The notes under the pieces: generated by a model
The model's input: only the letters and a program-made list of their open reading frames with translations
Database searches by the model: none
Told to the model about the DNA's origin: nothing
Part shown: piece by piece, positions 3,791-21,117 of the stretch
Layout of the letters: every line of letters begins with the position of its first letter
Position numbering within the stretch: position 1 is the first letter of the stretch
Source: Sporomusa termitida
GTDB lineage: Bacteria; Bacillota; Negativicutes; Sporomusales; Sporomusaceae
Reading direction: 5' to 3'
DNA: 64,000 nt
Assembly (NCBI RefSeq): GCF_007641255.1
Contig: NZ_CP036259.1
Location: forward strand, 3,908,501 to 3,972,500
Translations under genes and position numbers: made by a program

Positions 3791-3810
3791 CCATGAAGGT
3801 GGTATAACGG

Positions 3811-3990
3811 TATTAAGGCAGGTCTCCTGGCTCCCGGTTCATCAACACTTACGCCTTCCCCTTGCGAGTGGCATCGGTAAGGTCTTCCCGGTACAGTGGC
3901 GGGCCCGCGCCTACATACGGAATCATTCCGTACTCGGACTTCCCTATTCTCCCCCGGCACGCGGGGGCACCTCAACCGTGAATATATATA
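3811..3990 (-). promoter_or_regulatory. cobalamin (B12) riboswitch
   Basis: Read on the minus strand, the region has the hallmarks of the B12 aptamer: GAGGTGCC early, GGGAAG, GCCACTG in the core, and the B12 box AGCCAGGAGACCTGCC at 3816-3832. It is followed by a terminator and then the two CobT-like genes. Established for the class: cobamide binding favours termination. Confidence 0.95.
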
Positions 3991-20317: not shown

Positions 20318-20347
20318 TTGACAAGCCCGTAAAAAGGCTGTTACAAT
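20318..20347 (+). promoter_or_regulatory. promoter of the xpt leader transcript
   Basis: TTGACA, 18-base spacer, TACAAT. It predicts a start near 20354 and a leader of about 195 nt before xpt. Confidence 0.75.
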
Positions 20348-20353
20348 AAAGCC

Positions 20354-20520
20354 TAAATAATAAAAACTAGCTTGTTGGGGACCGGCCCCGGAAGTCGTTA
20401 GCGGCAACCGCAAATTGCTGTTATGTCCATATACTGCCTTTGACGGGGTAAAGCCCGGACAGGGAAGTTTCGCTCATATACTGCCAAGCGGAGTTTCCCT
20501 GCCAGGGCTTTTTGCATTTC
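20354..20520 (+). promoter_or_regulatory. structured leader of xpt, riboswitch candidate
   Basis: Between promoter and gene lie ACTAG, a GGGGACCGGCCCC hairpin, GACGGGGTAAAGCCCGGACAGG, and two copies of CATATACTGCC (20428-20438, 20475-20485). AAGCCC...CAGGGAAG pairs with TTTCCCTG.CAGGGCTTTTT (20491-20514) to form a terminator, so the GCCC/CAGGG segment is shared by both structures. The usual purine aptamer motifs were not found. ACTAG plus the GGG-TAAA-GCCCGG part loosely recalls the ykkC class, whose subtype 2b senses PRPP, a substrate of Xpt. Confidence 0.5.
20451..20515 (+). terminator. leader terminator of xpt
   Basis: AAGCCC, CAGGGAA and CGCT on the left pair with AGCG, TTTCCCTG and AGGGCTTTTT on the right, giving a long interrupted stem with a U-tract about 30 bases before the xpt start. 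Confidence 0.7.
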
Positions 20521-20547
20521 CCCCACACTAACACAGGAGGCTTGTAC

Positions 20548-21117
20548 ATGGACTTATTAAAACAAAGAATCCAGGCTGACGGTCTGATTTTGAATAATTC
20601 CCTGCTAAAGGTTGACTCTTTTCTCAATCAGCAGATTGACCCCGAACTAATGATGAAAATTGCGGAAGAATTTGTCAGCCGCTTTCAAGGCGAAAAAATC
20701 ACCAAAATATTAACCATTGAAGCTTCCGGTATTGCCGCGTCGGTAATGACCGGGCTCATTCTGCGGGTGCCTGTTATTTTCGCGCGCAAGCGCAAGCCAA
20801 AGGTAACCGGTGATGATGTGTATACGGCTAACGTCTATTCTTATACCAAGGGTGAAAGCAATAACATCATTATCTCCAGACAGTTTTTACAGGCCGATGA
20901 CCGGGTGCTGATTATTGATGATTTCTTGGCCAATGGCGAGGCCGCCGCCGGCCTGGCCAATATTGTCGAGCAGGCTAAGGCCAAAGTCGTCGGGATAGGC
21001 ATTGTCATTGAAAAGTCTTTCCAGCCCGGGGCCCAGAAATTAGCCGCCGCCGGCTACCGGGTTGAATCACTCGCCCGGATAAAATCGTTTGCCAACGGCC
21101 AGGTCAACTTCCTCTAA
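20548..21117 (+). CDS. xpt: xanthine phosphoribosyltransferase
   Basis: A 189-residue type I phosphoribosyltransferase salvaging xanthine to XMP with [16 protein letters not shown]...[16 protein letters not shown] is the family N-terminus; [10 protein letters not shown] and the PRPP loop [14 protein letters not shown] are present, with KFARKRKP-like substrate text (FARKRKPKV). GGAGG precedes the ATG at 20548. It stands alone behind a regulated leader, with no adjacent permease. Confidence 0.95.

Follow-up and report, generated by a model that had tools for sequence, protein, structure and literature searches.

The xpt leader of Sporomusa termitida as a probable decayed descendant of a tandem guanine–PRPP riboswitch

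The stretch of DNA analysed here (the window: 64,000 nucleotides of Sporomusa termitida contig NZ_CP036259.1, positions 3,908,501 to 3,972,500) carries xpt, which encodes a xanthine phosphoribosyltransferase of 189 amino acids (20548..21117, forward strand, as are all other features of this locus). The gene, 84-90% identical to xpt of other Sporomusa and of G011, a genome from a sister genus in the family, is preceded by the Shine-Dalgarno sequence AGGAGG (20536..20541) and, further upstream, by a near-perfect sigma-70 promoter, TTGACA-18-TACAAT (20318..20347), common to leaderless Sporomusa and to Pelosinus and G011. Between this strong promoter and xpt lies a structured leader of about 190 nt: the preliminary description of this DNA was correct in supposing that a real leader is present.

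Two adjacent hairpins occupy the 5′ part. The upstream one (20370..20395), GCUU(G)UUGGGG-ACCGG-CCCCGGAAGU, is identified by folding, by a guanine-aptamer model and by alignment to S. malonica (L005) as the P2 hairpin of a former guanine aptamer. The second (20399..20423), on the same three kinds of evidence, is the P3 hairpin, with 9 bp and a loop, CCGCAAA, one base away from the conserved L3; C74 is either deleted or U. The bases between them (20396..20398) are, in the predicted fold, a remnant of J2/3, other J2/3 bases being paired into the longer P3. There follows a linker in the place of a deleted PRPP-aptamer core, and in it the first copy (20428..20438) of an 11-nt direct repeat, CATATACTGCC; the second lies within the terminator loop (20475..20485). 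An exact repeat of equal length occurred in 14 of 2000 order-1 Markov sequences, and the duplication perhaps arose by a template switch. Beyond the linker, alignment and a PRPP-aptamer model identify a relic of the 3′ end of a ykkC/PRPP aptamer (GACGGGGUAAAGCCCGGACA, 20442..20461). It overlaps an intrinsic terminator (20453..20513, about -31 kcal/mol, U5) homologous to those of tandem guanine–PRPP leaders. The text GACGGGGTAAAGCCCGGACAGG on which the preliminary description drew is present at 20442-20463, and the GCCC...CAGGG segment is, as it stated, common to the leader text and the strong terminator (20452-20513, -31.4 kcal/mol). Compared with dinucleotide-shuffled sequences, the leader forms a more stable fold (z -3.2), a difference due mainly to the terminator; P2/P3 on its own has z -0.8. 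Elsewhere in the window a cobalamin riboswitch (3800-3989, minus strand) scores 88 bits in Rfam.

No Rfam family matches the xpt leader, whether the window is searched at gathering scores or the isolated leader at E<=10; a snoRNA match at E 8.6 is attributable to chance. The check that had been proposed, cmsearch with RF00442 and RF00167, returned neither family even at E<=10: RF00167 gives no match to the leader at its gathering score (37 bits) nor up to E 10, RF00442 none, and guanidine-I, T-box and the other Rfam classes none.

Homology to the leaders of relatives is more informative. Nine Sporomusa genomes were searched. Across the order, a search with the leader found a single close homologue, before S. 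malonica xpt (76% identity over positions 16-183 of the query, E 6e-24). Other matches are shorter and limited to the terminator end; they fall in tandem guanine–PRPP leaders, one of which is in the window genome itself. The purine aptamer recognised by Rfam is intact before S. malonica xpt (66.5 bits) and before G011 xpt (81 bits). The earlier statement that guanine-riboswitch motifs are absent from the window leader does not survive this comparison, for a degenerate guanine aptamer is recognisable through its homology to the intact one of S. malonica. Its motifs can be followed through the leader: L3 is CCGCAAA, one base off CCGUAAA, GGCAA...UUGC forms P3, and GAAGUC...UUA corresponds to J2/3. 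The ACTAG that had been taken as a sign of ykkC is a remnant of P1/J1-2 of the guanine aptamer and not the CTAGGG box of ykkC RNAs. The 5′ half of the leader descends from a guanine aptamer, a relationship that had been missed.

The relatives also reveal a second aptamer. RF00442 ykkC-type aptamers lie directly downstream of the purine aptamer in G011 (34 bits) and in permease-type leaders (46-58 bits), scores that fall short of the gathering score (63), as a subtype might be expected to do. Both aptamers are intact and 5-7 nt apart in G011 and in a leader of the window genome itself (L032) that precedes an NCS2-type purine permease (named from its open reading frame), but not in the window leader. 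This order and spacing identify the relatives' leaders as the tandem guanine–PRPP riboswitch, in which aptamers about 5-7 nt apart form an IMPLY gate (Sherlock et al. 2018, PMC5912903); the tandem arrangement suggests that their ykkC-type aptamers bind PRPP and not another ykkC ligand. Tandem leaders precede xpt in G011 and in Pelosinus (L009, 1194-1450; L042, L043, L047, L050 and L085, about 1698-1970). The words "xpt" and "xanthine" are absent from the main text of the 2018 paper, and the main text of PMC12456013, a Term-seq study of S. sphaeroides, makes no mention of xpt. In Propionispira xpt leaders (L052, L054) Rfam recognises no purine aptamer.

Two covariance models trained on sequences of the family itself, one (R1) on 20 guanine aptamers and the other (R2) on 13 PRPP aptamers, put figures on these differences. 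R1 gives 78-91 bits for all intact xpt and own-genome members tested, scores that are high by construction since most of these members were used to build it; the window and L085 (88.7 bits) were outside its training set. The window scores 10.1 bits with filters off (E 0.008 for 602 bases searched), the match extending over P2-P3 with no P1. R2 gives 84 bits for G011, which was in its training set, and, for sequences outside it, 29-46 bits for the Pelosinus xpt leaders, 13.6 for S. malonica and 4.2 (E 0.1) for the window, where the match is limited to the last ~22 positions, the GGG-uaaa-CCC hairpin. The Pelosinus leaders are thus the same tandem with a weakened PRPP part; that part is eroding (the CTAGGG box is changed) and the guanine part is intact. 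As to the ykkC likeness noted previously, the homology is true, since GGGGTAAAGCCC with the terminator segment corresponds to the 3′ end of a PRPP (ykkC-type) aptamer, but with 4.2 bits and the rest deleted the window RNA is no such switch. Likewise PRPP, the ligand suggested earlier, is a plausible input in the sister genus and in Pelosinus, but not for a leader that keeps only those last ~22 model positions. The hunch was correct as to ancestry but mistaken as to function.

Within Sporomusa the losses can be ordered, at least tentatively. S. malonica, the closest relative by rpoB (the tree pairs it with the window genome, 97/96), keeps the guanine aptamer and terminator and has lost the PRPP core. 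The xpt gene tree, with moderate support, does not pair the two and so gives no independent confirmation. Seven other Sporomusa xpt genes have no riboswitch, yet the same TTGACA-TACAAT promoter as the tandem leaders of Pelosinus and G011; the shared promoter argues that it is ancestral and that the leader was lost, not gained. Two Sporomusa genomes show insertions at this place: in S. silvacetica (L037) two long palindromic hairpins stand between promoter and xpt, and in S. malonica (L038) about 195 nt of hairpin-rich sequence stand between promoter and aptamer; the palindromic insertions are possibly a mobile hairpin element. At three other genes the window genome retains intact guanine aptamers, each of about 85 bits, from which it follows that the host still senses guanine and that the loss is specific to xpt. 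Two of its guanine aptamers, L033 and L035 (C1:3152289 and C1:3768512, minus strand), are intact with no adjacent match to the PRPP model; from their open reading frames, the genes that follow are a BMP-family lipoprotein and a second NCS2 permease beside xanthine-dehydrogenase-like genes.

A critical issue is what the guanine aptamer of the window has lost. In the gapped alignment to S. malonica, the two strands of P1, each of 8 positions, carry 4 and 3 changes respectively and no longer pair; by inspection 2 bp at most are available. P1 is likewise missing when prefixes of 72-100 nt are folded, and from the R1 match. The same alignment shows changes at 3/3 positions of J1/2, 4/7 of L2 (AUAUGG becoming ACCGG) and 3/8 of J2/3; J2/3 aligns without insertion, J3/1 is shorter and L3 is nearly intact. 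The pocket bases, numbered as in the B. subtilis xpt aptamer, are partly retained: U47 and U51 are kept, as is A52, U22 has become G, and C74 is deleted (gapped) or U (ungapped). Columns invariant in 20 relatives are preserved by the window at 16 of 27; when each relative is left out in turn, it keeps at least 27 of 27-31, that is, at least 87%. P3 has 9 bp in the window's predicted fold, in which former J2/3 and J3/1 bases pair, against 5 bp in the fold of S. malonica, and a putative kissing contact between L2 and L3 (CGG/CCG) is possible. The terminator is as strong as ever (-31.4 kcal/mol against -31.9 in S. malonica), and its segment UUUCGCUC is identical in all 8 terminators compared.

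The changes are unevenly placed. Relative to S. malonica they affect 20 of 50 conserved columns and 2 of 20 variable ones (p 0.02; p 0.06 in the ungapped alignment), and 12 of 27 loop and junction positions as against 3 of 27 in the P2/P3 stems (p 0.01; p 0.08 ungapped). This is not what uniform neutral drift gives. In this one sequence the pattern could stem from selection for both hairpins, from a few linked events (loss of P1, deletion in J3/1) or from a change of ligand. A 32-nt pattern allowing 3 mismatches brought up no second copy of the window core among 380 genomes of the class (one genome per species); a DNA-similarity search of the same genomes also gave no further copy, which is weak evidence because the S. 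malonica homologue was likewise missed at that length.

The explanation we favour, with a probability of roughly 0.6, is that the leader descends, in decayed form, from the tandem guanine–PRPP riboswitch and is most likely a ligand-independent attenuator; it is probably a relic midway through losing regulation and not a new switch. In the ancestral xpt leader a guanine aptamer (OFF) would have stood upstream of a PRPP aptamer (ON), with one terminator shared between them. Next, in the line that led to S. malonica and the window species, the core of the PRPP aptamer would have been deleted, its 3′ hairpin becoming fused to the terminator; afterwards, in the window species, the guanine aptamer would have lost its closing helix P1 and ligand pocket. 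What remains would be a pair of hairpins side by side, then a linker and a strong terminator, and several other Sporomusa would have gone one step further, losing the whole riboswitch. We infer that an RNA without a pocket is blind to ligand and that the terminator passes a fixed fraction of RNA polymerase into xpt. Prefix folding suggests how: at 125 nt the 5′ arms of P2 and of the terminator are paired with each other (-39.4 kcal/mol), and the terminator fold wins at 155 nt, so that a competing long-range fold formed before the terminator is complete is predicted, for this one sequence, to allow partial read-through. There are arguments against decay. The same alternative fold, if the model is right, makes some switching conceivable; changes that gather in the core and spare the stems could mean rebuilding; and a strong unregulated terminator ahead of a gene that is used carries a cost, unless much of the polymerase reads through.

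With the changes concentrated in the binding core and the stems persisting, a re-specified guanine aptamer is a candidate: P2/P3 and L3 would have been kept and the junction altered for another ligand, as in the 2′-dG, xanthine-II and guanine-II variants. The affected columns are those of the conserved junction and pocket, variant classes arise repeatedly in Firmicutes (PMC9295807), and the gene is a purine phosphoribosyltransferase. We nonetheless think it unlikely: all known variants have a three-way junction closed by P1, which cannot form here, the J2/3 and J3/1 bases pair together in the predicted fold, J2/3 has no insertion like those of xanthine-II and guanine-II, and the example is single, with none conserved in the 380 genomes of the class. 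A xanthine-II or guanine-II variant as such was rejected on J2/3 (no insertion), J3/1 (shorter) and P1 (missing). An adaptive origin of the core changes might alternatively have made of P2/P3 and L3 a new P1-less ligand sensor, or a kissing-hairpin attenuator, that arose from the guanine aptamer and controls xpt in one Sporomusa lineage, a speculative proposal that we consider improbable.

The strength of the terminator, and the pairing of the P2 5′ arm with the terminator 5′ arm in prefix folds (-39 kcal/mol at 125 nt), would also fit an attenuator under non-ligand control, whereby an RNA-binding protein, ribosome traffic or polymerase speed decides between the long-range fold and the terminator. 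This too seems unlikely, given that neither a conserved protein site nor a leader peptide with a ribosome-binding site is seen, that the alternative fold is predicted for one sequence and that the terminator wins at full length. That the leader still acts as a guanine OFF-switch through a pocket that works though highly divergent, we consider very unlikely. Its homology to the intact S. malonica aptamer is recognisable, U47, U51 and A52 are kept, and UGUCC/GGACA could serve as antiterminator, but the guanine-pairing base C74 is deleted or U, U22 has been replaced, there is no P1 and 11 of 27 invariant columns are altered. Least credible by far is the ykkC-class on-switch for PRPP or ppGpp put forward in the preliminary description: a 3′ hairpin and shared terminator segment homologous to the PRPP-aptamer end speak for it, but the CTAGGGTTCC...GACC core of the PRPP aptamer and its upstream helices are absent (4.2 against 84 bits) and RF00442 finds no match. 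A ykkC aptamer of known kind is refuted by the absence of that core and those helices.

Riboswitches are usually studied in their working form. If the leader is the relic that we favour, xpt in one bacterial family offers a series of losses in a two-input RNA logic gate – from full tandem, through an eroding PRPP aptamer, a deleted PRPP core and a lost guanine pocket, to a leader that is gone – with the promoter retained in nearly all states. The case invites questions about the dismantling of a regulatory RNA: in what way it proceeds, whether the terminator goes last and whether a broken switch is reusable. It also advises caution: an unassigned leader upstream of a riboswitch-type gene can be a relic and not a new class.

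Four known systems are the closest to the leader. With the xanthine-II, guanine-II and 2′-dG variants (PMC9295807) it shares altered core positions and persistent P2/P3; those classes, however, are described as retaining a three-stem junction and as occurring in several species, and xanthine-II and guanine-II have insertions in J2/3 and J3/1 with P1 intact (PMC9295807), whereas in the window P1 is gone, J2/3 has no insertion and there is one example. The GGGG-UAAAG-CCC hairpin that overlaps the terminator is a feature of the ykkC/PRPP aptamer (subtype 2b; RF00442), unlike which the window leader has no upstream helices, CTAGGG box or GACC box. The xpt-type guanine riboswitch (RF00167) has a P1-closed three-stem junction and U22/C74, all lost in the window (10 against 78-91 bits), but P2, P3, L3, parts of J2/3 and the gene itself are the same, and the alignment to S. 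malonica shows common descent (76%, E 6e-24). Finally, although the PRPP aptamer of the window is deleted save for its 3′ hairpin and the guanine part is without P1 and pocket, its parts (promoter, region of the guanine aptamer, 3′ end of ykkC type, shared terminator) come in the order of the tandem guanine–PRPP riboswitch (PMC5912903), to which the leader is joined by direct homology through the xpt leaders of G011, Pelosinus and S. malonica.
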